A stretch of DNA of 56,674 bases from a virus. Shown here piece after piece: positions 13,223-30,632 of the stretch; position 1 is the stretch's first letter, and each line of letters opens with the position of its first letter. The translations under genes were made by a program, and so were the position numbers. The notes under the pieces were generated by a model, which was not told the DNA's origin, made no database searches, and saw only the letters and a program-made list of their open reading frames with translations. The DNA lies in the IMG/VR virus record IMGVR_UViG_3300034021_000712, positions 1 to 56,674 of that record. One strand, written 5' to 3'.

Positions 13223-13245
13223 AGTGGTGATTTAATTACAGTTTA

Positions 13246-13274
13246 ATTATAACAGGGCATAGCCCCCCTTGCAA
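13246..13274 (-). promoter_or_regulatory. Strong sigma70-like promoter with -35 in a hairpin
   Basis: Minus-strand TTGCAA (13269-13274), 17 bases, perfect TATAAT (13246-13251). The -35 falls in the loop of a hairpin formed by AGCCC and GGGCT, just after the helicase stop. There is no U-tract, so the hairpin is at best a weak terminator. Confidence 0.65.
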
Positions 13275-13278
13275 GGGC

Positions 13279-14532
13279 TCAAGCCAGTGCAAGAGGTGGC
13301 ACACCCTTCAGGAAGATGGCATCAACTACTGTTTGGAGACGTTTGACGATCTGAGAACCATAATTAGTGTAAACAGGCACAGTAACGTAGCCACAGGGTT
13401 TGCGATAAAATTGACAATCACCAGGAACAAGCACCCCAGTCGCAATATCTTCGGCGTCTTGTCGATCAACTCGAATAACACGCCCGATAGTTTGCGCCAT
13501 TTCAACGATGTTGAGATTCCTAAGCAGGATTGTGTGCGTAAGCCCTGGGACGTTGATCCCTTCGCTGAGAATGGAATAGTGAAGGAGAATGAATTTCCGC
13601 TGCGGATCCTTACCCCATTCGGTGAGAGTGTCAAAAAATACTTCGCGGTTGACCTTTTGTTTGTTGACATAAGCCCCATGTTTAGAAGTGATGTGGAGGA
13701 TATCATATCCCCGCTCAGAGAGACGCTCTAGAACATCACTCTGACTGAGCATGTTCCAAAGAATTTTGGTGCTAGGTGCAGCCACAAGAATCTTAGCAGC
13801 AGCAGATTCATCGAGAGAATCAACGATATCAACAACAGTGTTAGAATCTACCGTTGCAGCAGTCTCTTTGCTACGAAGAAAATCAGTCTCATGAGCAACA
13901 ACCTTGGGAGGAATGATGCTACCGTTGGCAATGAGCTTAGGTGCAGGAATATTCATGAGAACATTACCATACACTTCAGGGTTGTTCATGCCCCTAGCAT
14001 GTTTTTGACTGATTCGTGGAGTAGCAGTGAAATAATAGCAATTCTGAGCATATTGGCTGATTGCAAACACGCTGGTGAAGAAGTTTCTACCAGTCGAGTT
14101 GTGAGCCTCATCATAGTAAATGACATCGATATCAATACCACTATCGATAATCTTAGGAAGAGAATGATAGGTAGTATACAGAATACGATGGCTATTAGAT
14201 TGCTCTGCCATCTTCACGAAACCAGCAATTTTGTCTGGATTCGTGGTCTTGAAGTGCTTAGTTTCACCGCTGTGAATGTGAGCAGGAATAGCAACGTTAC
14301 TAAGAATGTGCTCACTAAACTCAGCCTCAAGCTGACTCGCCAGAAGAATTCTCGGAGCACAGACAACAATAGTCATCGGACGCTGAGCTTCATTAAGTCT
14401 GCGCAGACAATCAAAAATCATGATGAGGGTCTTGCCACCACCAGTAGGGCAATAGATAGAACCTTTGTTTGCAGACTTCAGAGCATCTAGAGCTTTTTGC
14501 TGGTGGTCACGAAGTTTCATAGAATCAATCAT
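13279..14532 (-). CDS. DEAH-box DNA helicase (UvsW-like SF2), 417 aa
   Basis: SF2 helicase: Q-like start LRDHQQKALDAL, Walker A CPTGGGKT (K34), Walker B DVIYYDEAH, motif III FTATPR, and motif VI AQTIGRVIRVDR near residue 350. The C-terminal half carries the second RecA domain. The family includes T4 UvsW, which unwinds branched DNA and R-loops, and type I/III restriction helicase subunits; the proximity to a methyltransferase leaves the latter open, but there is no nuclease domain in the protein. An in-frame ATG 4 codons later is an alternative start. Confidence 0.8.
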   Translation of the reverse strand: MIDSMKLRDHQQKALDALKSANKGSIYCPTGGGKTLIMIFDCLRRLNEAQRPMTIVVCAPRILLASQLEAEFSEHILSNVAIPAHIHSGETKHFKTTNPDKIAGFVKMAEQSNSHRILYTTYHSLPKIIDSGIDIDVIYYDEAHNSTGRNFFTSVFAISQYAQNCYYFTATPRISQKHARGMNNPEVYGNVLMNIPAPKLIANGSIIPPKVVAHETDFLRSKETAATVDSNTVVDIVDSLDESAAAKILVAAPSTKILWNMLSQSDVLERLSERGYDILHITSKHGAYVNKQKVNREVFFDTLTEWGKDPQRKFILLHYSILSEGINVPGLTHTILLRNLNIVEMAQTIGRVIRVDRQDAEDIATGVLVPGDCQFYRKPCGYVTVPVYTNYGSQIVKRLQTVVDAIFLKGVPPLALA

Positions 14533-14542
14533 TTACTTGTAA

Positions 14543-14571
14543 AGGATAGCAAAAATTATCCCCCCAGTCAA
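14543..14571 (-). promoter_or_regulatory. Sigma70-like promoter for the helicase, -35 in hairpin loop
   Basis: Minus-strand TTGACT (14566-14571), 17 bases, TATCCT (14543-14548), 11 bases before the helicase ATG. The -35 hexamer is exactly the loop of the terminator hairpin at 14558-14579. Confidence 0.6.
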
Positions 14572-14579
14572 GGGGGGAT
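14558..14579 (-). terminator. Terminator hairpin of the oxygenase/HNH operon
   Basis: A perfect 8-bp stem (ATCCCCCC/GGGGGGAT) with a 6-base loop TTGACT, followed on the minus strand by AATTTTTGC. It lies 17 bases after the HNH gene stop. It is the first clear terminator found in the transcription direction after the tail-fibre and oxygenase genes. Confidence 0.65.
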
Positions 14580-14596
14580 GGATAAAAATATTTTAT

Positions 14597-15232
14597 TTAA
14601 GAAAGGATTTCTAAAAGATTAGGTAATGGCTTTTCTTTTTTGGTTCTTTTCTTTTTTACATTCTTTTTGGCATTATGAAAATTGCCATCATAAAACTCAA
14701 TTGCTGCTCTAGAGTTATCTCTAGGCTTTTTATACTCAAGATTATCTAAGAGATTGTTTTTAGGATTAGTATCTAAGTGATCAATAAAAACAGTATCCCT
14801 CACCCAGTCTATAACCTTAGGTGGGATTCTTCTCTGCCCAACCATATCAGGAGTGATAACTTCAAACCAACTATCTTCCAATTCTTTTGGTGGATGATCG
14901 TATATAGATCTAAATGTTCCCATCATTAACTGATGGAGATACAATGTTATTCTAGCTTTCTTGCTGTTCTTTTGTCTGCAACTGTAACTATATGTTGGAT
15001 CCCAGTTTTCAGGTAAAGTAAAATCTAATTTTTGATGGAGTTTATCTTTTGAATTTCTAGGTGTCATCAAGTGAACTCTATTTTTGAATCTCAAGAGACT
15101 GTATACCTTTGCACTCTTAGTTACATAATATCCAGGAAGTGGATATCGGTAAACAGCTGGATATGCTAACTCTCCATCAATTAATATAGGCTCAGATAAA
15201 TCAGTTTGCAAAAATTGGCACGACTTCGACAT
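14597..15232 (-). CDS. HNH homing-type endonuclease, 211 aa
   Basis: The C-terminal half has the HNH core: VFIDHLDTNPKNNLLDNLEYKK with H, N, N in order, followed by RDNSRAAI, and an upstream LYLHQLMMGTF. The N-terminal part (YPLPGYYVTKSAKVYSLL) is NUMOD4-like, and the C-terminus is a lysine-rich tail. Free-standing HNH enzymes of this type are mobile genes in T4-like phages. It is the last gene of the operon containing the oxygenases, just before a terminator. Confidence 0.82.
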   Translation of the reverse strand: MSKSCQFLQTDLSEPILIDGELAYPAVYRYPLPGYYVTKSAKVYSLLRFKNRVHLMTPRNSKDKLHQKLDFTLPENWDPTYSYSCRQKNSKKARITLYLHQLMMGTFRSIYDHPPKELEDSWFEVITPDMVGQRRIPPKVIDWVRDTVFIDHLDTNPKNNLLDNLEYKKPRDNSRAAIEFYDGNFHNAKKNVKKKRTKKEKPLPNLLEILS

Positions 15233-15279
15233 TAACGCATCCCTCTTCTTTCACATGCGATTCCCAAAAAATGGCATCA

Positions 15280-15432
15280 TCAATCTTCAAAAATGTTGCT
15301 GTTTGCTTGCTGAACTTGTTCTTTTTCGGCTTCAGATACACTACTTGATACTTCATTATTTCTAGGTGGATATCCATAGAATTTTAACACCTCATCATAG
15401 AGGTTGTCAAGGTTCTTATTTGTGTTCTGCAA
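15280..15432 (-). CDS. Small hypothetical protein, about 50 aa, probable TTG start
   Basis: A strong GGAGGAGGG ribosome-binding site stands 7 bases before a TTG codon at 15432, which gives a 50-residue acidic product. An ATG at 15474 in the same frame lacks a good site and would overlap the upstream gene by 59 bases. The tail is rich in S, E and Q. No family recognised. Confidence 0.45.
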   Translation of the reverse strand: MQNTNKNLDNLYDEVLKFYGYPPRNNEVSSSVSEAEKEQVQQANSNIFED

Positions 15433-15721
15433 CGTTGTGCCCTCCTCCTGTAAATTCTGCAACAATTCTACCATCCTTTATCTTCTCAAATCTCTCTGGA
15501 TCCACTGCAATCTCATCCCAGTTTTGAGTATAAACTAGCATGTGAACATCATTCACCCTCTTATCTCCTTCTGTTATACAGATGGTAACATATTCATCAC
15601 AGACAAATTTAATGTAACCAGAATGTGATCTATATTCAACATAAGATCCTTCTTTCAAAGACATAATGATATCACGAAGTTCTAGTGCGTGTGAATTCCA
15701 GAGAAACAGAGGTGTGGTCAT
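15416..15721 (-). CDS. Hypothetical beta-rich protein, 101 aa
   Basis: Starts MTTPLFLWNSHALELRDIIM, overlapping the oxygenase stop by 4 bases. The middle, KEGSYVEYRSHSGYIKFVCD, followed by more strands, looks like a small beta barrel. I recall similar cyanophage proteins of unknown function. Confidence 0.6.
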   Translation of the reverse strand: MTTPLFLWNSHALELRDIIMSLKEGSYVEYRSHSGYIKFVCDEYVTICITEGDKRVNDVHMLVYTQNWDEIAVDPERFEKIKDGRIVAEFTGGGHNVAEHK

Positions 15722-16380
15722 GGAAGAGGAATTAGTGAGAATTGAGAATCTGGGATTGATGCTCTGAGAGTCACATCATACCCTAAAGTAATTCTAGGAC
15801 CTTTAAAGTCTTCATTAACAAATACTTTATGCTCTCGATATCCAGGACCAAAATAGATTTGCCCTGGCTTGTTTACGATCTCATAATGGTCATCACCATT
15901 TCGAAACTTAGTAACTGTTTCTTTAGGATCAATGGAGATATAACCATGATAATCCCAATGATGATCATGCCAATCAAGAACAGTATCTGGTCTATGAAAG
16001 TTCATCCAACATTGATACCAAGCAGGAGTTGCATCACCAATAGAAAGACGAATGAGTGATTTCAGTTGCCTTTGAATCTCATAAAAATAAGGTGATGGTG
16101 CAGTCAAAGCAAACACATTATAGAAAGAATAACCCGACAAATTTGAGTTTGAATTGTTCATTTCATTTTCAATGAAGTTGTGATCCTTCGCCTGTAAGAT
16201 CTGAGGGAGATCACCAAAAGTAAGTTCCTGTCTACGAGTAAGAGAAGAATCTACATTGACAAATACGTTCTTAAAATTTTCGTATGCAGTGTTTAGATCC
16301 TCAATAATTTCTCTCTGATAGCTTTCAATAAAATCGCTTTTATATAAAACCCAATCAGTTCCGTGATCAATTAATCTCAT
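15718..16380 (-). CDS. 2OG-Fe(II) oxygenase-like protein 1, 220 aa
   Basis: A double-stranded beta-helix oxygenase is suggested by H141-W-D143 in WHDHHWDYHGYISI, the distal H184 in YREHKVFV, and R196 (GPRITLGYDV) as the 2-oxoglutarate anchor. These enzymes hydroxylate, halogenate or desaturate substrates using 2OG, O2 and Fe(II). It is the last of six in the operon. ATGA overlap with the gene upstream. Substrate unknown. Confidence 0.75.
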   Translation of the reverse strand: MRLIDHGTDWVLYKSDFIESYQREIIEDLNTAYENFKNVFVNVDSSLTRRQELTFGDLPQILQAKDHNFIENEMNNSNSNLSGYSFYNVFALTAPSPYFYEIQRQLKSLIRLSIGDATPAWYQCWMNFHRPDTVLDWHDHHWDYHGYISIDPKETVTKFRNGDDHYEIVNKPGQIYFGPGYREHKVFVNEDFKGPRITLGYDVTLRASIPDSQFSLIPLP

Positions 16381-16997
16381 TTTAAAGCCTCCATGTTTAA
16401 GTTAATTAGATTAAAGTTTAGCACACATCGGTGTGTGTCATTTGCATAAGAAGAGCAATGAAAATGATTGCTTGGAAAGATAACCACTCTACCACGCTTA
16501 GGTTTAATTGGTTCCTTCAAAATATCAAAGTCGTTATCATTCTGAATCTTATCAAATTCTTCTTTAGTATAATCCTGGAGATGTTGCTGAAGAACGTGCG
16601 TATCTCCATTATTTGTATTGACATAATATAGCCCACTCCAAGAATTTCTATAGAAGTGGTCAACATGAGGTAGGTGCCAACCCTTATCATATCCAACTTC
16701 TTTCTGGAATAGATTTAGCCTCATGCTATCAAGTTTGTTCCATTTAATCTCTGACTCTCTTTCGCTAATAGCCAGAATAATAGGATAGAACATGTCAAAT
16801 AAATTAGATTTGACCGTATCATCACTATAAATGTAATGAAAAAATCCAGGAACATTTCTAGGATCTCTTTTTTTCACAGCAGAAATTGCATGTTGTTTAT
16901 AATACCAGGGGATTTGAATTTCCTCGTTGAAAACAAAATCTTCAATCCATTTCTGTTGAGCTTGAGGAATAATATCATCAATAATATAATATTTCAT
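16377..16997 (-). CDS. 2OG-Fe(II) oxygenase 2, 206 aa
   Basis: The canonical set is complete: H111-V-D113 in LPHVDHFYRNSWSGLYYV, distal H180 (FPSNHFHCSS) and R190 (HRCVLNFNL). The region between carries a typical GxxxIFP turn before the distal histidine. Cytoplasmic, likely Fe(II)- and 2OG-dependent hydroxylase. Four-base overlaps on both sides indicate co-translation with the sister oxygenases. Confidence 0.85.
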   Translation of the reverse strand: MKYYIIDDIIPQAQQKWIEDFVFNEEIQIPWYYKQHAISAVKKRDPRNVPGFFHYIYSDDTVKSNLFDMFYPIILAISERESEIKWNKLDSMRLNLFQKEVGYDKGWHLPHVDHFYRNSWSGLYYVNTNNGDTHVLQQHLQDYTKEEFDKIQNDNDFDILKEPIKPKRGRVVIFPSNHFHCSSYANDTHRCVLNFNLINLNMEALK

Positions 16998-17599
16998 TCG
17001 ATAACTCCATTGTTTAATGTTTTCATTTCTTCATGTATTTCAGGGTGAGCTAAACTAAAGTGAGCACCAAGCATTGGTCTCCCATCATACTTATAATGAG
17101 AAAATTCACCCTCAGAATCAACATATTGTAAAAATCCCATAACCTGCTCTTTACCTGGGAAAGGGGGTCTCCAATGTAGATACTTTGATCCCTGAAAAAT
17201 TACAATATCTCCAACATCTAGACTAATTGATTCTACACCACTATCATATTGAATGTAAAGATCCCACTCAACTGGATCTTTAGTTATACAACAGCTAACA
17301 GAATATTCTGAAGATCTTCTATCTTTATGCCTCTTCAATTCACATCCATTCATGTATATTCTGGCATAAGAATAAGAAGGATAAAGCTTTCTACCAACTG
17401 CAGATGAGATTGTAGGCGTTAGGTTATCCATTAGCGCCTCAAAGCATATAGGAGAATACATAGCAAATGCTCCTGGAACAGTGGGATCAGAATCTGGTCC
17501 TCCAGAAGCAATAACATTTGCTCGTATTAGTTTGTATTCTGTTGCTATATGATCGCAAACTTCTTTGGAGATTGCATTTCTAATTATGATATGTTCCAT
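16994..17599 (-). CDS. 2OG-Fe(II) oxygenase 3, 201 aa
   Basis: H91-K-D93 (LKRHKDRRSSEYSVSCCI) and distal H142 (GSKYLHWRPP) form the iron triad; the 2OG anchor may be K150 rather than arginine, since no arginine stands in the usual place. The LDVGDIVIFQGSKYLH phrase is the classic strand before the distal histidine. Overall like prolyl-4-hydroxylase or PKHD-type enzymes. Start shares one base with the upstream stop. Confidence 0.8.
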   Translation of the reverse strand: MEHIIIRNAISKEVCDHIATEYKLIRANVIASGGPDSDPTVPGAFAMYSPICFEALMDNLTPTISSAVGRKLYPSYSYARIYMNGCELKRHKDRRSSEYSVSCCITKDPVEWDLYIQYDSGVESISLDVGDIVIFQGSKYLHWRPPFPGKEQVMGFLQYVDSEGEFSHYKYDGRPMLGAHFSLAHPEIHEEMKTLNNGVIE

Positions 17600-18231
17600 T
17601 AAATATTACCAACTCTACCAAAAAATACTAGTGTCAACCTTGAATCTTCGTTAGTTGTTCCAAAAAAGTCTGCAGCACTATGGAATTGTCTAGCATCAAA
17701 TAAAAGCATTCTATTAAATCTATTTTCAACCTTTAAATTAGGAGTGAAGTGTGAATTACATTCATTCCTATACTTTTCATATTGAACAACAATCTCATCA
17801 GATTCTGCATTTGCAGCAGTAACAAATTCATTTACATAATCTACATCTTTTCTATCTTTTAGCCGATCATAGAGCCAAGTTCCACTATTTTGTGGTGGCT
17901 CGGGATTTAAGTATACCATACCAGCAACATCTAAATCATCAGAGTCTTGATGAACCCAGCCACCAATATCTCTCTCCTTGCAGATATGAAAGGAGCAATC
18001 AAAGTATTCAAAGAAGTTATAGTTTGGTATATGGGGGATTAGTTTTCTGCAAACCAGATGATGAAAATCAACATGGTTTATATTTAAAATTTCAGATCTT
18101 AATCCAGACCAATTTCCACGATTACCTTTATAAAACTCAAAAGTAAGTGCCCAAGAACGAATAGCTTCTGGAGTTTCGAAAAAGTTATCAACAATAACAG
18201 TTGGAAATGGTGGTTTAACGATGCGTGTCAT
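17599..18231 (-). CDS. 2OG-Fe(II) oxygenase 4, DUF6445-like, 210 aa
   Basis: Triad H94-Q-D96 (GGWVHQDSDDLDVAGMVYL), H184 (ARQFHSAADFF) and anchor R198 (SRLTLVFF). The N-terminal phrase FPTVIVDNFFETPEAIRSWA is like DUF6445 proteins, which I recall beside tryptophan-halogenase genes in several Proteobacteria. That recurring neighbourhood supports a joint role with the halogenase at 21180-22835. Family assignment is by eye. Confidence 0.78.
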   Translation of the reverse strand: MTRIVKPPFPTVIVDNFFETPEAIRSWALTFEFYKGNRGNWSGLRSEILNINHVDFHHLVCRKLIPHIPNYNFFEYFDCSFHICKERDIGGWVHQDSDDLDVAGMVYLNPEPPQNSGTWLYDRLKDRKDVDYVNEFVTAANAESDEIVVQYEKYRNECNSHFTPNLKVENRFNRMLLFDARQFHSAADFFGTTNEDSRLTLVFFGRVGNI

Positions 18232-18938
18232 TTCTTATATAAAAATGCAAATGGGCATTTAGATTCTTGCTTCTTAAACATCAAATTCTTTGATAGCTTA
18301 GGAATTACATCCTTTAAAGCAATTCTCCTTTGAGTGTCTTCCACAAGAAGATCATCAGGTCTTGCTTTAACTAGAGTGAATTGGCAATTCAAATCACCCT
18401 CTTTAAAAAATCTAACTTTATATAGTGGATCTCCTCTCTTAATGACAATTGGTTTAGTGTCATCTAAAATATCAATAGCAAAAGAAAGTGGTCTAGTCCA
18501 GCTGCTAAGATTCCACCACCCACCAATAGTTACGAAATTACATAATGCATTGTTGGGATGTGGTGATTGATCTAACCAAACATTCTTCTCTTTTGTCCAG
18601 AAAAGAAACATAGGAATAGGAAGCTGATATGTCTCCAAATTGGATCTATTTTGCCCCTGAATATACTTATGAAACTGATCTTCTCTCAGTGAAGAGTTTA
18701 CAAACCTATTAACCCGATCAATCTCAAGACGGATATCTCTAGCAGCATATACAATAAATTCTCTGCTTGCCTTATGTTGGAAAGCAGGACATTCATAATA
18801 TGTCTTTGTATTTGGAATTTCTTGAATTTGCCTTTTAGGTTCAATACCGACACCATCTAAAGGAAGAGGTGAGTTTTTCATATCAGGAATATATCCATCA
18901 CCCTCAAATTGTTGATAATAGATCTTAATTTTCTTCAT
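18228..18938 (-). CDS. Unknown oxygenase-operon protein A, 236 aa
   Basis: Starts MKKIKIYYQQFEGDGYIPDM. It lacks the HxD...H triad. It shares a layout with the 20440-21207 protein: an early CP motif (YECPAFQHKAS), a long beta-rich middle, and a late phrase PIVIKRGDPLYKVRFF that parallels EVLIKGGTPLAQYIPI in the other. I therefore regard the two as distant paralogues, perhaps DUF6065-like, but I am not sure of the family. A binding or scaffold role for the tailoring enzymes is possible. Confidence 0.6.
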   Translation of the reverse strand: MKKIKIYYQQFEGDGYIPDMKNSPLPLDGVGIEPKRQIQEIPNTKTYYECPAFQHKASREFIVYAARDIRLEIDRVNRFVNSSLREDQFHKYIQGQNRSNLETYQLPIPMFLFWTKEKNVWLDQSPHPNNALCNFVTIGGWWNLSSWTRPLSFAIDILDDTKPIVIKRGDPLYKVRFFKEGDLNCQFTLVKARPDDLLVEDTQRRIALKDVIPKLSKNLMFKKQESKCPFAFLYKK

Positions 18939-19503
18939 AATACTTTGGAACAAAGTTTGCGTTTATAACTACTCTTTTTTGATGTTGTTGTGGGCAACTA
19001 CTAGAATGGTATATGCCTCCACCAAATAATATAATTCTCCCCTTCTTTGGAGAACATCTGTCTACAGGTATCCTGTTGCCATCAGAATTATAGTCAAAAA
19101 AGATTGTATCCCCGTCACTATCATTAACGTAATACAGAAGTGTTTTATGTGGGATATTGTAATCTATATGAGCTTTATTATATGTTGTTTTTCCTGTTTT
19201 GACAAGCAATCCACACTTAATTCTCAATAAATTATCCAAAGGCTCTTCAAATTTCTCTGAAGCTTCATAAAATAATGGCATAAGATAATCTAAAAATTCA
19301 CCTTCAATGCCAACTTGTCGATCATATTGAACATTGGCAAATCCTGGAGTGGGCTCGCCTTCATGTTCATCAATATGTTCTTTAGTGAAGTAAGAAACTT
19401 CTTCAAGATATCTCCAAGAAAATCTAAGACCCAATAGAACATGTTCTATTTCATCTTGATATCTTTTTGATACTACATTATCAATACATTTAAAATACTT
19501 CAT
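18925..19503 (-). CDS. 2OG-Fe(II) oxygenase 5, 192 aa
   Basis: Triad H112-I-D114 (KAHIDYNIPHKTLLYYV), H166 (GGGIYHSSSC), and anchor R177 (KRVVINANFV). The KKGRIILFGGGIYHSS phrase is nearly the same as KRGRVVIFPSNHFHCSS in oxygenase 2, so these two are probably duplicated genes. Overlaps the next gene by 14 bases. Confidence 0.84.
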   Translation of the reverse strand: MKYFKCIDNVVSKRYQDEIEHVLLGLRFSWRYLEEVSYFTKEHIDEHEGEPTPGFANVQYDRQVGIEGEFLDYLMPLFYEASEKFEEPLDNLLRIKCGLLVKTGKTTYNKAHIDYNIPHKTLLYYVNDSDGDTIFFDYNSDGNRIPVDRCSPKKGRIILFGGGIYHSSSCPQQHQKRVVINANFVPKYYEEN

Positions 19504-20150
19504 GCTCCAAAATTTATCGTTAAAACAACTCGATCATCATCAGAATTACTAACTTGTGTTCTATGCTTTATCCACCCAGGAAAAAATAAAACATCATTGG
19601 TCTTAACTTTAACTTCTTTCCAAAGATACTCTAATGGTTCATAGGGTAAACCAAATTTATGATACTCCAAAGGATCCCTAAATTCAATATTTCCAGAGTT
19701 TGGTGGGCATTGTAAGTAACATGTGGCAATCAAAGGAGTATGGTTATGATTGTGCTCTAGAGTAGCTCCTGTTCTCTTATGTAAATTATTCCAAGAAGAT
19801 GTAATAATAGGCGATCCCCTATATTTCAAATGATTCCACACAAACATTGCTCTATTCATCAACCAAGGCATAAAAAATTGAGTTTCTTGCCAGGTATGTG
19901 GTTGATATGATATGTGTAAATTATCTCTATTTTGTGCCGTAGAAAATGCTGCTCCTGTTTCTAATGCACTACCAGTATATTCAGGGTTCTGCGTTGCATT
20001 CATCGATAGCCCAATAGCATTCTGCAACCTAGACATAGGATAGTTAAATCCATCCTCGTAATGAAACAGCCAAATATATGATTCCCAAAGATCAATGGAG
20101 ACTGACCCAGAAGGTCTCTCCATTGATGAATCTTCCCATTGATATATCAT
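19500..20150 (-). CDS. 2OG-Fe(II) oxygenase-like protein 6, 216 aa
   Basis: Resembles the TIGR02466 group: SSWNNLHKRTGATLEHNHNH, then YLQCPPNSGNIEFRDPL, KTNDVLFFPGWIKH and RVVLTINF. The distal histidine is H196 and the anchor R207. In the first iron site the usual HxD or HxH is HNHNH (133-137), so the acidic ligand is replaced; a missing carboxylate is also a known feature of 2OG halogenases, though those have Ala/Gly there. Function therefore uncertain. Confidence 0.75.
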   Translation of the reverse strand: MIYQWEDSSMERPSGSVSIDLWESYIWLFHYEDGFNYPMSRLQNAIGLSMNATQNPEYTGSALETGAAFSTAQNRDNLHISYQPHTWQETQFFMPWLMNRAMFVWNHLKYRGSPIITSSWNNLHKRTGATLEHNHNHTPLIATCYLQCPPNSGNIEFRDPLEYHKFGLPYEPLEYLWKEVKVKTNDVLFFPGWIKHRTQVSNSDDDRVVLTINFGA

Positions 20151-20440
20151 TCCTCTTCTTCTTCTGGAATAGTAAGAACAAAGTTACCATCAGCATCGGT
20201 ATCTACATCCTCATTGAGAACGTCTCTCTTATAAATCATGAGACCTTCTACAGCTCCCATAAGTTTTGTTCTCTTTTCGATCAGATCATTTCTCTTGCCG
20301 AAATCAATTTTAGTGATTCCATATGGATTGATCTTAACATCATTCATTTCAGTTTCAAGCTTTTCAATTTCCTCGCTTGCCTCTTTAATCTGTGCAGCGA
20401 AATTAAGAATCAGTTCGTCTAAAGTCATAGTGTTCTCCAT
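20147..20440 (-). CDS. Coiled-coil hypothetical protein, 97 aa
   Basis: Starts MENTMTLDELILNFAAQIKE; residues 10-75 form a charged helical segment with heptad spacing, and the end is acidic (PEEEEE). Shares one base with the upstream stop. It could be a chaperone or structural helper within the fibre/tailoring operon; no family recognised. Confidence 0.55.
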   Translation of the reverse strand: MENTMTLDELILNFAAQIKEASEEIEKLETEMNDVKINPYGITKIDFGKRNDLIEKRTKLMGAVEGLMIYKRDVLNEDVDTDADGNFVLTIPEEEEE

Positions 20441-21207
20441 TAAAGATTTTTGCCGTTTGCGTATTTTGAAATAACTGTGATGGTTCTTTTCAACCTATCA
20501 GAAAGAGTATCATATCTGGGGATAGAATGTGAAGTAAACCTGAAAGAATGCTCAAGTTGCCATTCTTTTTCTCCAGCGCCATCAATGTATATATCATACC
20601 AATTTTTATCCAAAACTTTTCTAGGAATTGGAATATATTGAGCCAGTGGAGTTCCCCCTTTGATTAAGACTTCATCATTCAATTTGTGCCAGAACAATTG
20701 AACATTACACTGTAGTGCATATCTGGGATCAAATATTCCTGTAGCAGAGGTAAATCGATCTTCATTATTCCAATGAACATGCGTTTGAATTAACACAATA
20801 TCATCAGATGCCCTACATCTCCATGGTGTTTCAATTTTAATCGTTGTTGCTAATGTCTCTCTTGGGCTATCAATAATAGGTAAAGTTTGATCTGGAGGAT
20901 GGTTGCCTACCAAACCAGCTTGAGACATAAATGCCGATCCAGATTCCCACTCAAAGCTAGAACCGTCACCGTTCGTTTTAATTACAATATCTGTAGGGCA
21001 AGTTATAACCCACCCCATTTTAACGTATTGATTAATACCTGGGCAAGTTGCTGCCGATAAAATATTAGTAATCTTAGAAAAGGGGCACTTTGACCCCTCT
21101 CCTTTCCAAGTTCTGGTTAAAGATGATGCTGGGATGATAGGATATAAATCTTCTACTGCTTTTTCAAGAGAATAAAATCTTACCCAGGGCTTTTTTCTTC
21201 TAAACAT
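20440..21207 (-). CDS. Unknown oxygenase-operon protein B, 255 aa
   Basis: Starts MFRRKKPWVRFYSLEKAVED. Beta-rich, with ATCPGINQYVKMGW early and LFWHKLNDEVLIKGGTPLAQ late, matching the layout of protein A at 18228-18938. No catalytic triad is evident. The gene overlaps the halogenase stop by 28 bases, so it is tightly coupled to the halogenase. Possibly it supplies substrate binding; this is inference. Confidence 0.6.
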   Translation of the reverse strand: MFRRKKPWVRFYSLEKAVEDLYPIIPASSLTRTWKGEGSKCPFSKITNILSAATCPGINQYVKMGWVITCPTDIVIKTNGDGSSFEWESGSAFMSQAGLVGNHPPDQTLPIIDSPRETLATTIKIETPWRCRASDDIVLIQTHVHWNNEDRFTSATGIFDPRYALQCNVQLFWHKLNDEVLIKGGTPLAQYIPIPRKVLDKNWYDIYIDGAGEKEWQLEHSFRFTSHSIPRYDTLSDRLKRTITVISKYANGKNL

Positions 21208-22835
21208 GTATCAACTCCACCATAAATGTTGTCACGCAAGTATTCGTAATGTGATGGAAGAGTCTTAATATAATCTTCCATTCTATTTCTGAAGTTAAGA
21301 TACCCATCACGAATATTCAAGATATCTTCATCAGTCTCAATCTTATCAAATGCTCTCCTCATTCTAGCATGTTCTAGTGTAGAAATAGGGCGAACACCCA
21401 TTCCAGCAAGAATATAATTCATTCCACCCATGCTTTCATTATATGTATTCCTGTCTAAATTACCAGCAATACTAAACCAAACTTCATCAGTTCGACGTAA
21501 TGTGTTGAACATGTCTGGATCATATTCATGCTTAGTAGTAGCCCATCTCCAATATGGAGTATCATTTCTCTGAGAGAATGCATAATGCATAGAGACGAAT
21601 TGATAGAAATTATTGATTTCATCATCAACTGAGAAATTGTAAGATTCAATTTCAGTTCTAGTTACATATCCCTGCCTTCTATTCAGAATCTCTACTAGTC
21701 TAATAATATTTTCATGAGTTGTCAATAGACCAGTAGATTCTAATGGCTCAACAAAGCCATAGGATAATCCGATTCCAACACAATTCTTAACCCAAGCTCT
21801 TCTTCTCTTTCCATGCTTAATAGATACACGGAAAAACTTATCTGGATCTACTCTATCTTCTCCATACTTTTTAACAAGATGATTGTAGAACTCTTCCTTG
21901 GCTTCGGCATCGGTGCAGAATTCATTTGAGTATGCATACCCAGTTCCGATACGATTCCATAGAGGAATTGTCCAGCACCAGCCATTGTTCATCCCCTCAC
22001 AATCCGTGACGTTAATCATTTCACGGTCTTTTTGTTCTACATCATTAGTATATGGAATTCTAGCAGCCCAGGCTCTATTTGTTCTTAGGTTATTCCATTG
22101 AACGAAAGAACTACCAAATTGCTTTTCTAGCAGGAGTGATTTGAATCCTGTGCAATCAATGATCAGATCAGCTTCAATAGTTTGCCCCTGTTCTGTAAAA
22201 ACACCAACAACAACATCAGTCTTTTTGCTTCCACTAGGATCGTCACCTGCATCTTTAACAAGACCAGCAACATCACCATACATATGGATTACCCCGTTTG
22301 GGATAGCAACATTATCTCTCAAATATTCTCCAAACTTTTCAGCATCTAAATGATAGGCAGTATCCCACTCAAAGTTATACTTTGGTAGATATTCTTCATT
22401 TCCGTTTGATTGCTTATTATGCTTAACCAGATAGGTATTTGATGGTGCAAAAAATTCTGCAAATTTAACATCAAAACTTGGATCCAAAAGTTTAATTTCA
22501 TCCAAAGCATTCAACTTTAAAGTTGAAGATGGCATATGAAATCCAGTTTGAAATGGATATTGAAAAGTTCCCGAATCTTTAGTTCTAAAATTAGTAAACT
22601 GAATTGAATTCTTGTATGTAGCATTACAATGTGGCATCCAATCTTCATCTTTTAAGCCCAATAGCTTAAGGAATTTGTTGAAATGCCCAAGTGTAGATTC
22701 ACCCACACCAACTTTTGGAATCACTTTCGATTCAACAAGAGCAATTTGTAACCAAGGGCATAGTTTACTCAGGGCAGCAGCAGTCATCCATCCAGAACTG
22801 CCGCCGCCTACGATTACGACGGATTCGATTTGCAT
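21180..22835 (-). CDS. Flavin-dependent halogenase (tryptophan-halogenase family), 551 aa
   Basis: All hallmark motifs are present: FAD-binding GGGSSGW (residues 10-16), GVGESTLG (43-50), the catalytic lysine K75 in YKNSIQF, the halogenase signature W286-C-W-T-I-P291, and E366 in FVEPLESTG, equivalent to the active-site glutamate of PrnA. These enzymes use FADH2, O2 and halide to make HOX, which K75 passes to an aromatic substrate. Its length is close to PrnA (538 residues). A cyanophage member of this family, VirX1, has been reported to halogenate and iodinate varied substrates. A separate flavin reductase is needed and is not seen in the window, so host reductase is likely used. Confidence 0.92.
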   Translation of the reverse strand: MQIESVVIVGGGSSGWMTAAALSKLCPWLQIALVESKVIPKVGVGESTLGHFNKFLKLLGLKDEDWMPHCNATYKNSIQFTNFRTKDSGTFQYPFQTGFHMPSSTLKLNALDEIKLLDPSFDVKFAEFFAPSNTYLVKHNKQSNGNEEYLPKYNFEWDTAYHLDAEKFGEYLRDNVAIPNGVIHMYGDVAGLVKDAGDDPSGSKKTDVVVGVFTEQGQTIEADLIIDCTGFKSLLLEKQFGSSFVQWNNLRTNRAWAARIPYTNDVEQKDREMINVTDCEGMNNGWCWTIPLWNRIGTGYAYSNEFCTDAEAKEEFYNHLVKKYGEDRVDPDKFFRVSIKHGKRRRAWVKNCVGIGLSYGFVEPLESTGLLTTHENIIRLVEILNRRQGYVTRTEIESYNFSVDDEINNFYQFVSMHYAFSQRNDTPYWRWATTKHEYDPDMFNTLRRTDEVWFSIAGNLDRNTYNESMGGMNYILAGMGVRPISTLEHARMRRAFDKIETDEDILNIRDGYLNFRNRMEDYIKTLPSHYEYLRDNIYGGVDTCLEEKSPG

Positions 22836-22864
22836 AATACCTCTATAAACAATTAATAATTATA

Positions 22865-23365
22865 TCAGAAATTTCCTCTCTCTAGCCAAGGCTTATACTT
22901 CAACCAGCAAGGATGTTCTTGAGATGCCATCTTTGGTTGCTTTTCAACAGAAGGCTCTTCAATTCTTTGCCTCTCCAACATTTGTTCCAGAGTTTCATCT
23001 GGTCTTTGGGGAGAATCAGGCCAACCTGCTTCTGGTTTTCTAACCTCAGCCTTAACTTTATCAATATGTTCAATCCAGTTACTTGTTCCTTCTTTCAGAT
23101 CATGATAAAGCATATCAAGTTGACTACCAAGATCACCATAACGAACTTGTCTCATCAACTTAGGATCGTGGAAAGGAATTTCTCTCTTAACCCAGATTGA
23201 TTCATCTTTCGATGGAGAATACTCTAAAGTCCAATGAATACTAATATCATCAGGAGCATCTAACCAAATAAAAGATGCATCTGGACCTTCATAAATTTCG
23301 TATTCTTCGCCTGGATCACAGATTTCCATTACTGTTCCAGTATGTTCTACAAGTGCTTTTCTCAT
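22865..23365 (-). CDS. Tail-fibre-region chaperone-like protein, 166 aa
   Basis: The central phrase MRQVRYGDLGSQLDMLYHDL, followed by WIEHIDKVKAE, is the motif often seen in small phage proteins linked to tail fibres (YGDxxDQLDMLxHD). The last 60 residues are proline- and glutamate-rich. It stands between the halogenase and the adhesin genes. A structural or assembly helper is likely; no catalytic motif seen. Confidence 0.6.
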   Translation of the reverse strand: MRKALVEHTGTVMEICDPGEEYEIYEGPDASFIWLDAPDDISIHWTLEYSPSKDESIWVKREIPFHDPKLMRQVRYGDLGSQLDMLYHDLKEGTSNWIEHIDKVKAEVRKPEAGWPDSPQRPDETLEQMLERQRIEEPSVEKQPKMASQEHPCWLKYKPWLERGNF

Positions 23366-23374
23366 GTTACCTCC

Positions 23375-24184
23375 TTATAAGTAATTAGTTACAATAACAA
23401 CTCCAGATTTTCCATCGGCACCTCTGAAGCTGTGAAAGTGCCCGCCAGATCCACCAGCACCGTATGCAGCATGATCTTGATGGTTATGACTAAAGTTGCC
23501 TCCGTTAGGCCAACCAGCAGCAACGGCACCACCAAAGTGAGATGCACCACCTAATCCGCCGCCGCCCATTCTATGGTCTGTATGACCAAATCCTCCACCA
23601 CCCCATACATTTAGATCACCACCAGAACCATTACGACCTAAGCCACCAGAGTGAGCATTAGTTCTATTTGCACCATGACCACCTCCAGCAGATAGATATC
23701 CACCAAAAGAACTAGAGCCACCATCGTTACCAAAACCAAAATACCATGTTCCAGTTCCTGCACCCCCAACAGTTACGGAAACAGAAGATACAGATTCAAC
23801 ATTAATGACTCTTTCAGCATAGCCACCAGCACCACCAGATTCTGAGTGACCAGATCCACCGCCGCCGCCTGCTTGAACTCTAACATGAATATATCTAACA
23901 CCAGTTGGTCTACTCCAGGTTCCATTACCAGTATAAACATTCATTGAAGTAATGTTACCAGAAGAAACTGCTGACCAGCTCAATGAAGTTCCATTAGTGG
24001 TAAGAAATTTTCCAGATTGACCAGAAACTGAAGGAATAATAGAGTTGGATGATCCACCAATTGTTCCTTCAATAACGATATCAGTTACCGTTAAAGTTCC
24101 AGCAACAGAAATTGTGCCATTGGAAAAAGTAAATCCACTGGATCCTGTTAAGTCTTTAATATTTGATACTTTTAATACTGCCAT
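23375..24184 (-). CDS. Glycine-rich tail adhesin paralogue 3, 269 aa
   Basis: N-terminal attachment-like part MAVLKVSNIKDLTGSSGFTF, a GNGTWSRPTGVRYIHVRVQA strand module (about 85-110), then about 150 residues of glycine-rich repeats ending HNHQDHAAYGAGGSGG and GVVIVTNYL. The glycine-rich part resembles the polyglycine lattice of T-even gp38-type adhesins, which determine host range at the fibre tip. Third of three tandem copies in transcription order. Confidence 0.72.
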   Translation of the reverse strand: MAVLKVSNIKDLTGSSGFTFSNGTISVAGTLTVTDIVIEGTIGGSSNSIIPSVSGQSGKFLTTNGTSLSWSAVSSGNITSMNVYTGNGTWSRPTGVRYIHVRVQAGGGGGSGHSESGGAGGYAERVINVESVSSVSVTVGGAGTGTWYFGFGNDGGSSSFGGYLSAGGGHGANRTNAHSGGLGRNGSGGDLNVWGGGGFGHTDHRMGGGGLGGASHFGGAVAAGWPNGGNFSHNHQDHAAYGAGGSGGHFHSFRGADGKSGVVIVTNYL

Positions 24185-24188
24185 GGTT

Positions 24189-24989
24189 TTACTTGTAATG
24201 TGTAACTACAACAACACCTTCTTTTCCATTGGAACCCCTAAAGCTATGGAAGTGACCACCAGATCCACCAGCACCGTATGCAGCATGATCTTGATGGTTG
24301 TGACTATAGTTTCCCCCATTAGGCCAACCAGAAGCTACTGAACCGCCGAAATATGAATTACCTCCAGTTCCTCCACCATATGCAAAGTGACATTGACCAC
24401 CTCCACCCCATACATTTAGATCACCACCAGAACCATTACGACCTAATGCTCCATTATGAGCCCCATTCTCATTTGCACCATGTCCACCTCCAGCAGAACA
24501 ATATCCACCGAAGGAACTAGTTCCACCACCTCCACCAAAGCCAAAATAATACGTTCCGCTTCCCCCACCACCAACTGTTACAGAAACAGATGATACGCTA
24601 GTTACATCAATAATTCTTTCAGAATATCCACCAGCACCACCAGACTCACCATGACCAGATGCACCTCCACCTCCACCTTGAACTCTAACCTGAATATATT
24701 TAATTCCTGTTGGCTTATTCCAGGTTCCACTACCTGTGAATATTTGCATAGAGTTAATATTTTCACTGGAAACAGCAGACCAACTTAAAGAATTACCATT
24801 AGTGGTCAAAAATCTATTCTGATTTCCAGATTGAGATGGAATAATTTGGGTTGAACTACCACTTATTGCACCGTTAACAGTAATATTTTGAACTCTAAGT
24901 GTTCCTGTGCTAGTAACACCACTAGAATTTAGGGAGAATCCCCCAATTCCAGCAATATCTTTAATATTAGCTACTCTTAATGTGCTCAT
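24189..24989 (-). CDS. Glycine-rich tail adhesin paralogue 2, 266 aa
   Basis: Same plan as its neighbours: MSTLRVANIKDIAGIGGFSL start, GSGTWNKPTGIKYIQVRVQG module, glycine-rich domain with the HNHQDHAAYG segment, and VVVVTHYK end. The gap to the next copy is only 4 bases. Differences fall mainly in the middle of the glycine-rich domain (AHNGALGRNG, CHFAYGGGTGG), where receptor-binding loops are expected. Confidence 0.72.
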   Translation of the reverse strand: MSTLRVANIKDIAGIGGFSLNSSGVTSTGTLRVQNITVNGAISGSSTQIIPSQSGNQNRFLTTNGNSLSWSAVSSENINSMQIFTGSGTWNKPTGIKYIQVRVQGGGGGASGHGESGGAGGYSERIIDVTSVSSVSVTVGGGGSGTYYFGFGGGGGTSSFGGYCSAGGGHGANENGAHNGALGRNGSGGDLNVWGGGGQCHFAYGGGTGGNSYFGGSVASGWPNGGNYSHNHQDHAAYGAGGSGGHFHSFRGSNGKEGVVVVTHYK

Positions 24990-24993
24990 TTTC

Positions 24994-25794
24994 TTACTTG
25001 TAATTTGTAACTACGACTACACCATACTTACCATCAGAACCTCTAAAGCCAGAGAAATGCCCTCCAGATCCACCCGAACCATATGCCGAATGGTCTTGAT
25101 GGTTATGACTAAAGTTGCCACCATTAGGCCATCCAGCAGCTACTGAACCACCAAAGAATGAACCTCCACCAGTTCCTCCACCGTGAGCAGTATGAGACTG
25201 ACCACCTCCACCCCATACATTAATATCACCGCCAGAACCATTACGACCTAAACCACCAGAGTGCCCATTATTTCTAGCAGCACCATGACCACCACCAGCA
25301 GAACAATAACCACCAAAGGAACTAGTTCCTCCGTCGTTTCCAGCATTAAAGTAGTAAGTTCCTCCACCGCCGCCACCAACTGTAATTCCTACAGATGTTA
25401 CAGATTCCACATTGATAATTTTTTCAGCATATCCACCAGCGCCGCCAGATTCACCATGACCAGCGCCGCCGCCGCCGCCACCTTGAACTCTTACATGCAC
25501 ATATTTTACACCAGTTGGTTTATTCCAAGTGGAATTGCCAGTGTAAACATTCATAGAAACAATGTTTTCTGACGATAACGTGCCCCAAGTAAGCTTAGAG
25601 CCATCAGTGCTTAAGTATTTTCCAGATTGACCAGACTGTGGAGGTATAACTTGAGATGATTGCCCAGTGATATTACCGTTAATGACTAAATTACCAACCG
25701 TAATAGTTCCGCCTGCAGAAGCAGAACCACTGTTCATGGAAAATCCACCAGTTCCAGCAAGGTCTTTAATATTTGATACTTTTAGAGTGCTCAT
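24994..25794 (-). CDS. Glycine-rich tail adhesin paralogue 1, 266 aa
   Basis: First of the three in transcription order. Starts MSTLKVSNIKDLAGTGGFSM, with the GNSTWNKPTGVKYVHVRVQG module and glycine-rich C-terminal domain ending VVVVTNYK. An ATAAATA box stands about 65 bases upstream inside the preceding gene. Its ATG overlaps that gene's stop by 4 bases. Surface-exposed host recognition is likely by comparison with T-even adhesins. Confidence 0.72.
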   Translation of the reverse strand: MSTLKVSNIKDLAGTGGFSMNSGSASAGGTITVGNLVINGNITGQSSQVIPPQSGQSGKYLSTDGSKLTWGTLSSENIVSMNVYTGNSTWNKPTGVKYVHVRVQGGGGGGAGHGESGGAGGYAEKIINVESVTSVGITVGGGGGGTYYFNAGNDGGTSSFGGYCSAGGGHGAARNNGHSGGLGRNGSGGDINVWGGGGQSHTAHGGGTGGGSFFGGSVAAGWPNGGNFSHNHQDHSAYGSGGSGGHFSGFRGSDGKYGVVVVTNYK

Positions 25795-27001: not shown

Positions 27002-27022
27002 GAGTTTATAAGAATAAGGTTA

Positions 27023-30000
27023 TTAGATTACTAACTCACGGATTTGAATTACATCACCAGTTTGTGGAACTGTAGACACGGAAAAGTCTACAGCATTACC
27101 AGTAACAGTATAATCAACTCCAGGAACTTGACATACACCGTTCAAGAATACGAGAACGGAATATGCAGTGTGCCCCGAAGAAATAGCAAAGGTAGATTGA
27201 ACCCCATTGCCATTATACGTTACACCATTATTGCTATTGGTAATACCAGTAGCTAATCTATATTTATCCGCGCACCCATATGATCCAGTAATATCAATGT
27301 TACCTTGAACATACACATTACCAGCAATCTTCATCCTGTTGGATGCATCTGGAGCCATACCAATACCATAGTTGGTAGTGCCAGAATATCTCTGAGATGT
27401 TATTGGCGTGGTATCAGATAATCCGAATTTATACCATGTTGCAGAATCATAAATCCAACCTAATGCTTGACCAGGAGCCCAATCCTGATTGTATACCATA
27501 TCACCATCATTAAATGCTAATCCAGCTGGGAGATCAGGTAAGCCCTGAGCATTCTCTTCTGCTAAGAAAGATTGCTTAAGAACTGTTCCATCTGCATTTG
27601 TATAGGTAAACTTCAGCGTTTGAATATTGTCAAGTGAAGTTACCTTTTTCTGGAATGTTACAGGACCAGAAAATACAGATTCTAACTGGTTAGATGCACC
27701 ACCAATTACGGTTAGTTTATCAGTTAAAACCAATTCTGAGAAAGTTTGGATTGTTGTATTTTCTTCACCCAAAACATTAAGTTGTGCAATGTCAGCATTA
27801 GTAATCTGACCAGTAACTGGGTTAACAACTTGGTTACCAATGAAGAGGTCACCGTTAGAGTTTAGACCAGAATAGAATGCAACGCCCGCTGCTTCTTTTA
27901 GTGACTGAGATAATCTAACTTGAGAATCAGTTAAAACTTCAACCTGCGTTGAGGGGAATGCAGTAGAATAGTTACCAGGACCAAAACCAAGATATTCAAA
28001 TGTGTGGTTACCTGAACGTAGAATTGAATATCTTCTCAATTCTACAGGAATTGGCTCTACAGAATTATCAGCTTCTCTGATTTTTAGTGGAATTTTTCTC
28101 TGCTCTGAATCACCAAGTCTAGCAGTTACTGTAATGCCATTCAAGACGTTAGCAACTGTAGTATATCCAAGATTATTTTCAGTTTCTTGTAAGAAGAATT
28201 GTGCAGTTTCTTTTGTGATCGATCTTTGAGCATCAAGATTTGGTGTTGGGGTTGCACCATCTGTAGCATATACTAATCCAATTGTCTCGTTATCTGCAAT
28301 AGATACCGAAGCTTGAGGATCAGCATTTGGGTTGTCTCTATCAAACGAAGGATATACCTCATTAACGTTCTGAGAGAACTTAAAGTCATTAAAGTTGTCT
28401 GTTGTAGGTGAAACAGAGGCAGAAAGAACTGAAAGATAATAAATTCCGTCTTGCTCACCACGAATAAATTCTTGGTATGTTTCAACTTCATACACATAAT
28501 AAATTTTATTGTATGAAGGAGAATTGGTTTCAGATGATCTTGGTTGCATTACGAAACCAGTAATAGGTTCTCTAGGAACTGGGAATGAATCTTTATCTAG
28601 AAGATATCTAAATCTATAGATTCTATCAGTTAAGTTTCTTGCATCGGGAACTCTTCTAATATATGAAGTTGGCGTGAATCCAAGATTTTGATATTGTGAA
28701 TTGGCAAGAAGAGTAGTATAGATGGTATTTACGTTTCCATCAACTTGAAGATACCAATTAGATCTGCCAGAATCCCATTTAATTGGATTATTTGGATCAT
28801 CTGCTGCAGTTCCAGTAACATCAGTTCCAGCAGGTTGAATATTAGCATAATGAACTGTTGGTGTAGTTGCACCAGATGCAATCAGCGAAACATATAATCT
28901 ATCTGGTGTATTAACGTTATCTCTTCTAGCACCAATTGTATAGCCTTGAATTTTTGTTGGTGGTGGAGCAGACTGATTGGTATATCCGTATAAGTAAAGC
29001 TTAGTTTGATCTGCTGCAGCTCTTGTCTTTTGAATATCAATTGTAACCCAGTTTACAGAAATCTCAGGAACATCACCTAAAGATTTTGGAGGGATTATAT
29101 GTGTAACTTGACCAGCTTTATCTTTAGTAAATGCTGCAGCCTTAAAGCCTTTACATCTTAATGATGTATTACCAAAGTTGGAGTTAGAGTTGGTGATCGA
29201 CATGTCACCACCACTATCAGCAAAGAAGTGATCGCCAAATCCAACAGCGAACACAGAAACAACCTGAATAAAAGCATCATTTGAAGCTTTAACGTGGCAA
29301 TGTCTCCAGCCTTTTCTATATTTGCAAAGACCATTGATGTGAGCACCAGATCCTGCAGTTTGTGGTTCGTAGTTGCCTGTATTGGGATTATAGAGAACAA
29401 ATGCTCTGTCATCCTTTTGTAGAGAAATTCCAGTAAACTGCGCAACAACCATGGATTTAAAGCCAGTAGCTCTAGATCCATCAGCGTGCATACCATTAAT
29501 TCCCCACACGGAACGTAGGGATAGGTTGAACATGTATGGAGAAGCAGAGTCTACTGTATCAATTTCAACCTTAACTAAGATATTATTTCCAATTGCATTA
29601 CCAGAAGGTTCTGCTGACATCTGATATGTAAATTGGTTACCCTGCGCAGATGTAACCAAGAATGAGCCATTATATAATAACTGGTCTTGTTCAGTCGGCC
29701 CTACAACACCAGAAACGTTAACTGCAACACCAACTGAGAATCCGTGGTTTTTAGGATTACCTAGTTCGTCAACTGTAAATGCTGTAGCAGTCTGACCATT
29801 ACGAATAATCTGAGAAACTGCAAATTCGTCAGAGATAGGACCAACGATTCTATTTTCTTCGACTCTTGCTTGGATCTGATCCTGAGAAATAACTCCAGAA
29901 GTATCAGGAATAGTAGCGTAAGCTTTTGAAATCTTTTGGTAGTAAAGATCTAGATCTTCTTTACTTGCATATTCAAAGCAAGTTAATTTGTGGTGAGAGA

Positions 30001-30601
30001 AGTTTGGTGCAATTGTATTAATTGCATCAGGTCTATAATATACACCATTATTATCACCATCAAATAATGAGAACTGCCAGAAATAACAACCACCAGTTAC
30101 TCTAAAAATAGCACTAGCTCCTGGTTCATTTAAGGCATTAATACCTAAACTACCTGATACTGTAGGATATGGAATATATTTTGGAATAATCTTCGTTCTT
30201 CTAAGGTCAGATCCAACTAGTGAACAACCTCTTGGAACAATGACGCCACCATCTACAGAATTAAATCTGTAAAGAATGTTACTACTTGAGTTGATATCAA
30301 AGTTACTATTTGCATCAAATGGTTGAATAGTAGCGTAATCAGATGTTCCAGGTCTATTATCAATAATATATTCAGAGGGATACAAATAGATAGAGAAAGC
30401 ATCAAACTCGTCATTAGAAAGACCAACTCTATATGAGAATCTTGCTACTTCTAAGAACGCTCGCTGTAGAGTTTTGAATGGTCGCAATGCAGAGTTTCCT
30501 CTGTTATCATATGCATCTGATGCATCAAAATCGTCAGGGTTAACGTAAATAATACGACCCGTTCTAGACGTAATGATATTTTTTAATCGAGTAAGTGCCA
30601 T
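27023..30601 (-). CDS. Large virion structural / tail fibre protein, 1192 aa
   Basis: The N-terminal 350 residues (MALTRLKNIITSRTGRIIYV, then RPFKTLQRAFLEVARFSYR) belong to a large protein I recall as conserved and virion-associated in T4-like cyanophages. The middle contains many beta strands. The last 85 residues (YNGNGVQSTFAISSGHTAYS to QIRELVI) are a separate domain that looks like a small receptor- or carbohydrate-binding module. Late box 22 bases upstream. Probably baseplate or fibre component. Confidence 0.65.
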   Translation of the reverse strand: MALTRLKNIITSRTGRIIYVNPDDFDASDAYDNRGNSALRPFKTLQRAFLEVARFSYRVGLSNDEFDAFSIYLYPSEYIIDNRPGTSDYATIQPFDANSNFDINSSSNILYRFNSVDGGVIVPRGCSLVGSDLRRTKIIPKYIPYPTVSGSLGINALNEPGASAIFRVTGGCYFWQFSLFDGDNNGVYYRPDAINTIAPNFSHHKLTCFEYASKEDLDLYYQKISKAYATIPDTSGVISQDQIQARVEENRIVGPISDEFAVSQIIRNGQTATAFTVDELGNPKNHGFSVGVAVNVSGVVGPTEQDQLLYNGSFLVTSAQGNQFTYQMSAEPSGNAIGNNILVKVEIDTVDSASPYMFNLSLRSVWGINGMHADGSRATGFKSMVVAQFTGISLQKDDRAFVLYNPNTGNYEPQTAGSGAHINGLCKYRKGWRHCHVKASNDAFIQVVSVFAVGFGDHFFADSGGDMSITNSNSNFGNTSLRCKGFKAAAFTKDKAGQVTHIIPPKSLGDVPEISVNWVTIDIQKTRAAADQTKLYLYGYTNQSAPPPTKIQGYTIGARRDNVNTPDRLYVSLIASGATTPTVHYANIQPAGTDVTGTAADDPNNPIKWDSGRSNWYLQVDGNVNTIYTTLLANSQYQNLGFTPTSYIRRVPDARNLTDRIYRFRYLLDKDSFPVPREPITGFVMQPRSSETNSPSYNKIYYVYEVETYQEFIRGEQDGIYYLSVLSASVSPTTDNFNDFKFSQNVNEVYPSFDRDNPNADPQASVSIADNETIGLVYATDGATPTPNLDAQRSITKETAQFFLQETENNLGYTTVANVLNGITVTARLGDSEQRKIPLKIREADNSVEPIPVELRRYSILRSGNHTFEYLGFGPGNYSTAFPSTQVEVLTDSQVRLSQSLKEAAGVAFYSGLNSNGDLFIGNQVVNPVTGQITNADIAQLNVLGEENTTIQTFSELVLTDKLTVIGGASNQLESVFSGPVTFQKKVTSLDNIQTLKFTYTNADGTVLKQSFLAEENAQGLPDLPAGLAFNDGDMVYNQDWAPGQALGWIYDSATWYKFGLSDTTPITSQRYSGTTNYGIGMAPDASNRMKIAGNVYVQGNIDITGSYGCADKYRLATGITNSNNGVTYNGNGVQSTFAISSGHTAYSVLVFLNGVCQVPGVDYTVTGNAVDFSVSTVPQTGDVIQIRELVI

Positions 30602-30629: not shown

Positions 30630-30632
30630 TTG

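Follow-up and report, generated by a model that had tools for sequence, protein, structure and literature searches.

We propose a model for the role of a gene block in a T4-like marine phage, as discussed below. The block lies at 15718-22835 on the minus strand of a virus fragment of 56,674 bases (IMG/VR record IMGVR_UViG_3300034021_000712, the full length of which is called the window here) and consists of ten intact genes, encoding a flavin-dependent halogenase, six predicted 2-oxoglutarate- and Fe(II)-dependent (2OG-Fe(II)) oxygenases, two related unknown proteins and a coiled-coil protein, with three genes of glycine-rich adhesins sitting immediately upstream. The window exemplifies a widespread adhesin-linked enzyme cassette, which was previously undescribed in the literature as searched. 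Based on the linkage, we regard it as reasonably probable that the block serves to tailor the fibre tip and that its enzymes modify the phage's own glycine-rich tip. It is noted that the block itself is already widespread in cyanomyoviruses, and the new element is the tightness with which the enzyme set follows the adhesin.

The features of the region are as follows, in the order of transcription (aa, amino acids; E, expect value).

27023..30601, minus strand: large tail-fibre protein, the shaft, 1192 aa, upstream of the cassette (PHROG 529 tail fiber, E 0)
24994..25794, minus strand: ADH3, glycine-rich fibre-tip protein, 266 aa (PHROG 863 family, for which the paralogue was scored; PF21722, E 4e-7)
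24189..24989, minus strand: ADH2, glycine-rich fibre-tip protein, 266 aa (ADH3 paralogue, 70% identical)
23375..24184, minus strand: ADH1, glycine-rich fibre-tip protein, 269 aa (PHROG 863 'tail fiber assembly', E 7e-55)
22865..23365, minus strand: P1787, 166 aa, possible fibre chaperone (PHROG 1787)
21180..22835, minus strand: flavin-dependent halogenase, VirX1 orthologue, 551 aa (PF04820; PDB 6qgm, VirX1; motifs intact)
20440..21207, minus strand: U7084, 255 aa, dUTPase-like fold in the model (PHROG 7084, E 4e-45; predicted local distance difference test score 91)
20147..20440, minus strand: small coiled-coil-like protein, 97 aa (position conserved across loci; weak PHROG matches only)
19500..20150, minus strand: OXD, predicted 2OG-Fe(II) oxygenase of PF13759 type, H133xH135...H196...R207 (PF13759, E 9e-13)
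18925..19503, minus strand: OXE, predicted 2OG-Fe(II) oxygenase, H112xD114...H166...R177 (PHROG 274, E 5e-42; residues invariant)
18228..18953, minus strand: U17480, 241 aa, U7084 homologue (PHROG 17480, E 6e-45)
17599..18231, minus strand: DUF6445 predicted 2OG-Fe(II) oxygenase, H94xD96...H184...R198 (PF20043, E 5e-13; residues invariant)
16994..17599, minus strand: OXH, predicted 2OG-Fe(II) oxygenase, H91xD93...H142 (PHROG 2954, E 1e-46; residues invariant)
16377..16997, minus strand: OXI, predicted 2OG-Fe(II) oxygenase, HxD...H...R (PF13759, E 2e-8; PHROG 274, E 5e-32; residues invariant)
15718..16380, minus strand: OXJ, probable 2OG-Fe(II) oxygenase, H138xH140...H184...R196 (PHROG 2696, E 2e-42; PHROG 81, E 2e-5)
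14558..14579, minus strand: hairpin then T-run, terminator candidate downstream of the block (strongest terminator-like site within 13200-32900)

The sequence comparisons bear out a true and specific tie between the enzymes and the fibre. With the halogenase as bait, the adhesin lies within 3 kb in 18 of the 23 IMG/VR loci having at least 9 kb on each side, and three or more oxygenases are present in 18 of the same 23. With the adhesin subfamily as bait, a halogenase is nearby in all of the 56 IMG/VR loci whose downstream flank reaches 5 kb or more, and an oxygenase in 53 of them. With the JmjC protein of sister clusters as bait (a complete result of 70 loci), both the adhesin and the halogenase are found in 49 of 49 IMG/VR loci whose upstream flank is 8 kb or longer. 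Of the phage records, 14 have the adhesin subfamily and 20 have P1787, and every one of these also has a VirX1-like halogenase; a fibre-base gene is present in 294. By contrast, the halogenase is found in none of 17 good IMG/VR loci of the sister adhesin subfamily, that of Syn33 gp38 (a query matching 97 phage records); there P1787 is next door in 16 and a PHROG-274-type oxygenase is close by in all 17. Moreover, in four loci (L075, L078, L079, L081) P1787 and the adhesins are turned round as a block with respect to the enzymes and yet still adjoin them. The first-pass annotation had held that homologues scattered singly without fibre neighbours would speak against a fibre role; for the VirX1-like subgroup the link survives this examination.

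Based on these counts, the proposal that the genes, each having its own unrelated role, are just carried along in a hypervariable stretch following the fibre genes is given a low probability. The content of the region does differ between phages, and the roles of cyanophage oxygenases in setting 2-oxoglutarate levels (PMC3037559) or in DNA repair (PMC9146016) that have been put forward would fit such a proposal. Nitrogen sensing has likewise been offered as an explanation for these oxygenases. If it were true, it would be expected that the genes are inherited independently, and this would not yield 56/56 and 49/49 as against 0/17 in the sister adhesins, nor would the adjacency be kept after inversion.

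The linkage is not uniform over all loci. Several loci (L049, L060, L062, L063, L072, L073 and L074 are examples) lack the adhesin and have other fibre-like genes adjoining, with identities read from the sequence starts. A few others (L051, L153, L154, L156, L165) have the adhesin, P1787 and the halogenase and no adjoining oxygenase of the tested families. In three of the former (L060, L063, L074), the number of halogenases ranges from one to several and U7084 is present three or four times; the neighbouring fibre-like gene is of another kind and lies on the opposite strand, and the glycine-rich adhesin of the halogenase-linked subfamily is missing.

The block recurs in the same gene order in S-CREM1, Syn9, P-RSM6, S-RIM44, S-WAM1, P-TIM40 and Syn10. 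Two phages of one species, S-RIM44, provide a case of replacement. In Np_42_0711, the giant fibre-to-neck interval contains three adhesins, P1787, two halogenases, U7084 and several oxygenases; in Sn_08_0709, the same interval contains a different tip of 294 aa, a small protein, one PF13759-type oxygenase and a short coiled coil (L170:16395-18508). The neck side is 95-97% identical between the two, as against about 65-70% for the fibre gene. Since the whole block, adhesins included, has been replaced within S-RIM44, the enzyme set changes with the tip. That the tip of Sn_08_0709 comes with an oxygenase of its own suggests that tip-linked oxygenases are general in cyanomyoviruses.

As the enzyme set travels with one type of receptor-binding tip, the enzymes probably decorate the tip protein. 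It is noted that another target would give the same pattern. If the enzymes altered the host receptor of the adhesin (a surface protein, polysaccharide or other), blocking rebinding to debris or the entry of rival phages, identical co-inheritance and co-replacement with the adhesin would be expected, and other phages do place receptor-altering enzymes beside receptor-binding genes. On the other hand, a single receptor would hardly call for as many as about ten enzymes, most of them unrelated, and the sister clusters add a JmjC enzyme from a protein-hydroxylase family. We thus consider the receptor an unlikely target, albeit the main rival. The first-pass annotation had left the target among the phage's own fibres, a host surface molecule and a small metabolite; of the three, the phage's own fibre tip fits best.

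We now turn to the locus itself. From its fibre, tRNA (transfer RNA) and other genes, the window can be placed with the T4-like cyanomyoviruses (Kyanoviridae), and the closest phage records are cyanophages, with about 74% DNA identity across one fibre gene. The coordinates and reading frames of the enzyme cluster proved exact on re-checking. The claim that most junctions overlap, by 1-28 bases, was right as to overlap; 'most' is an understatement because all nine junctions from the halogenase to the last oxygenase overlap, by 1-29 bases, where the figure of 29 assumes a TTG start. The strongest hairpin is indeed where it had been placed, with 8 pairs at 14579-14558, 6 of them G-C, and a T-run after them, and within 25794-15718 there are only weak sites (3 G-C pairs), all intragenic. 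The late-promoter core ATAAATA has 14 matches in the window as against 21.5 expected by chance, and the match 65 bases before the first adhesin gene is not counted as evidence. Eight tRNA genes lie at 34145-35672, flanked by virion structural genes.

For the adhesins, the structure model (built on alignments with the loci from phage records left out) matches in Foldseek the fibre of cyanophage Pam3 (7ypx) with E 7e-9 and a TM-score (template modelling score) of about 0.55. By this predicted fold, and by PF21722 above the cut-off, the adhesins are classed as glycine-rich fibre tips of the Pam3 gp24 type and are predicted to bind the receptor. As for Pam3 gp24 and S16 gp38, the tip gene stands behind the shaft gene and PF21722 is found, while S16 gp38 (6F45) is not in the top fold matches of the model. 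For Pam3, the glycine-rich tip has been described both as the portion of the fibre that binds the receptor and as hypervariable; unlike this, the subfamily in the window has a conserved tip-loop motif, approximately G-[HYF]-x-E-[SA]-GGAGG, which is common to the halogenase-linked adhesins in the alignment and missing from four sister sequences, the strict pattern matching 113 of 139 adhesins. A further difference is that the available excerpts on Pam3 and S16 describe no modifying enzymes for either. ADH3 contains 74 Gly and 10 His in its 266 aa. P1787 adjoins the adhesins in almost all loci, and may possibly serve as their chaperone. Searches of PDB by sequence with the adhesin profile, and with P1787 alone, gave no match.

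For VirX1, the structure has been solved and broad in vitro activity is known, and to our knowledge no native substrate has been named. The halogenase of the window scores E 9e-95 in PF04820 and E 1e-143 in PHROG 2928, and it is homologous to VirX1 (Syn10, 6qgm) over the full length (residues 2-541, E 1e-168, about 50% identity) with the same motifs. As had been claimed, it is complete, with GGGSSG from residue 10, K75, WCWTIP (WxWxIP) at 286 and E366, and by motifs and homology it is assigned to the flavin-dependent tryptophan-type halogenases of the VirX1 group. Likewise, no flavin reductase is found among the scanned proteins, with the note that the source is a fragment rather than a whole genome. 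IMG/VR holds at least 567 halogenase relatives. In three of its loci (L219, L232, L246) the halogenase genes number four or five, arranged as two blocks of opposite orientation, and some nine or ten oxygenases accompany them. The genome of S-B64 (NC_055744, about 61.8 kb and 148.4 kb) has a halogenase of the VirX1 type within its replication region and, at a separate place, an adhesin of the sister type.

In Syn10 the order is as in the window: adhesins, a P1787-like gene, halogenases, U7084, coiled coil and oxygenases. It differs in having two adjacent halogenases and more oxygenases, the window having one halogenase and three adhesins. The 530-aa halogenase of Syn10 matches the window better than its neighbour does and fits the 531-residue PDB chain by length. 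The cluster of Syn9 is near-identical to that of Syn10 and includes a JmjC-type oxygenase. In Syn9, S-CREM1, P-TIM40, S-RIM44, S-WAM1 and P-RSM6, a window-type block is likewise behind the fibre genes, with the number and kind of the enzymes varying; several have the JmjC protein, while the window has none. The first-pass annotation took single halogenases and single oxygenases as the norm, which is inconsistent with the two halogenases and the same oxygenase block of Syn10. Its statement that the window has more tailoring capacity than a normal phage is true relative to phages in general but not within the window's own phage group, and published counts of oxygenases in single cyanophage genomes stand at nine, ten and 24 (PMC9146016, PMC9964418, PMC9602691).

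The homology to tryptophan halogenases could also imply that the product or substrate of the block is a small molecule (an antibiotic, signal or redox compound) and that the block stands behind the fibre genes merely through a shared late transcript. VirX1 is reported to halogenate many small aromatics in vitro (PMC8407142), and a role in antibiotic protection has been suggested for a phage halogenase (PMC2984593, PMC9964418). If this proposal is true, a scaffold-building enzyme or an export gene would be expected, and neither is present among the ten scanned proteins; it also leaves the tracking of the adhesin subfamily and the S-RIM44 swap unexplained. We thus consider it improbable. As to a cluster for tailoring ribosomally made peptides, which would include a short precursor peptide with a leader, the adhesins are proteins of full size. 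VirX1 has been studied as a biocatalyst on synthetic substrates, and we found no report tying it to an adhesin. More generally, no published link of the halogenase or oxygenases to fibre modification was found in the open literature; subscription papers were outside the search, and earlier reports are possible.

Of the six claimed oxygenases, four (OXE, OXI, DUF6445 and OXH) have the iron site HxD/E...H plus the Arg/Lys for 2OG, as HxD...H...R invariant across homologues, while OXD and OXJ have the unusual HxH...H...R instead, its residues being invariant across 14 homologues of OXD and in the homologues of OXJ. OXD and OXJ may have a variant site or may bind no iron; OXD nonetheless scores in PF13759. 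Profile searches of PDB by sequence with OXE/OXI, OXH and DUF6445 gave no match. PHROG 274 is named 'DNA endonuclease V' and its members are called DenV in cyanophage records, while the sequences bear the HxD...H...R site of 2OG-Fe(II) oxygenases. To judge by these residues, the endonuclease label looks wrong and propagated (window 18925-19503 and 16377-16997; L167:7401-7901, L173:8160-8660). Such sites are also masked by the family names 'ferrochelatase' (PHROG 2954, 16994-17599) and 'minor coat protein' (PHROG 1644, 17599-18231).

U7084 and U17480, noted before as related, show scarcely any similarity by direct BLAST and are homologous by hhalign (probability 94.5%, E 7.5e-8). The U7084 model matches dUTPases in Foldseek (E 1e-4), which would suit a role of the enzymes in modifying phage nucleotides or DNA. 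This match covers only part of the protein, with a TM-score to the query of 0.35, and the likeness is in fold only, no dUTPase family being matched in Pfam or NCBIfam. As this role also leaves the adhesin link unexplained, we consider it very improbable.

Beyond the linkage, two analogies favour the tailoring of the tip. One is the kinship of the JmjC protein (PF08007), which occurs in the clusters of S-CREM1, Syn9 and P-TIM40, to protein hydroxylases. The best solved relatives of the P-TIM40 protein are NO66, MINA and YcfD (E 1e-6 to 4e-3), which hydroxylate His or Arg of proteins and are about twice as long as the phage protein. Phages are known to modify virion proteins with their own enzymes, for example by glycosylation; the proposed case is alike in that a phage enzyme would alter a virion protein, and differs in that halogenation and hydroxylation are proposed, with many enzymes per adhesin type. 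The other is that the active site of VirX1 is reported to be open and to accept large substrates (PMC8407142).

Some points weigh against the tailoring of the tip. Its support consists of linkage and family resemblance, and receptor-altering enzymes would be swapped together with the adhesin too. The PF08007 domain is absent from the ten proteins of the window. In L068, L061 and L084 the halogenase is beside replication genes (identities from sequence starts), and S-B64 and S-H35 have VirX1-like halogenases away from the fibres. The scans rank by similarity, favouring close relatives, the patterns of the adhesin scan suit the halogenase-linked subfamily, and the counts rest on related viruses, a set of 73 loci falling to 48 once near-identical halogenases are removed. 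A relation of adhesin His content to oxygenase number was tried and rejected: the raw Spearman coefficient is 0.49, but it falls to an r of 0.06 (p 0.69) when independent contrasts are taken over the tree of the halogenases, and therefore the trend is a clade effect.

In the tip-tailoring model, the three paralogous glycine-rich proteins would together make up the tip with which the long tail fibre binds the receptor, with P1787 probably aiding their folding. The halogenase and the six oxygenases would be made late, together with the fibre, and would modify tip residues while these are still in the cytoplasm of the host, ahead of virion completion. An aromatic or histidine ring would be halogenated, and His, Asn, Asp or Pro are among the side chains that would be hydroxylated, in the service of host binding. 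The host would supply reduced flavin, Fe(II) and 2-oxoglutarate, and seawater would supply bromide or iodide. A stepwise pathway had been proposed; separate residues hit by several enzymes fit equally well.

Finally, we tentatively suggest that a dedicated, swappable halogenase/hydroxylase set finishes the fibre tip of marine phages, and that this may be the native job of VirX1. The linkage offers VirX1 and the cyanophage oxygenases a specific protein substrate, which can be tested by mass spectrometry on cultured phages. If the model is true, protein halogenases and hydroxylases could be sourced from the cassettes, what phages can bind would no longer be limited by the twenty amino acids, and receptor binding by some of the very abundant ocean viruses would depend on chemistry invisible to genome-based host prediction.

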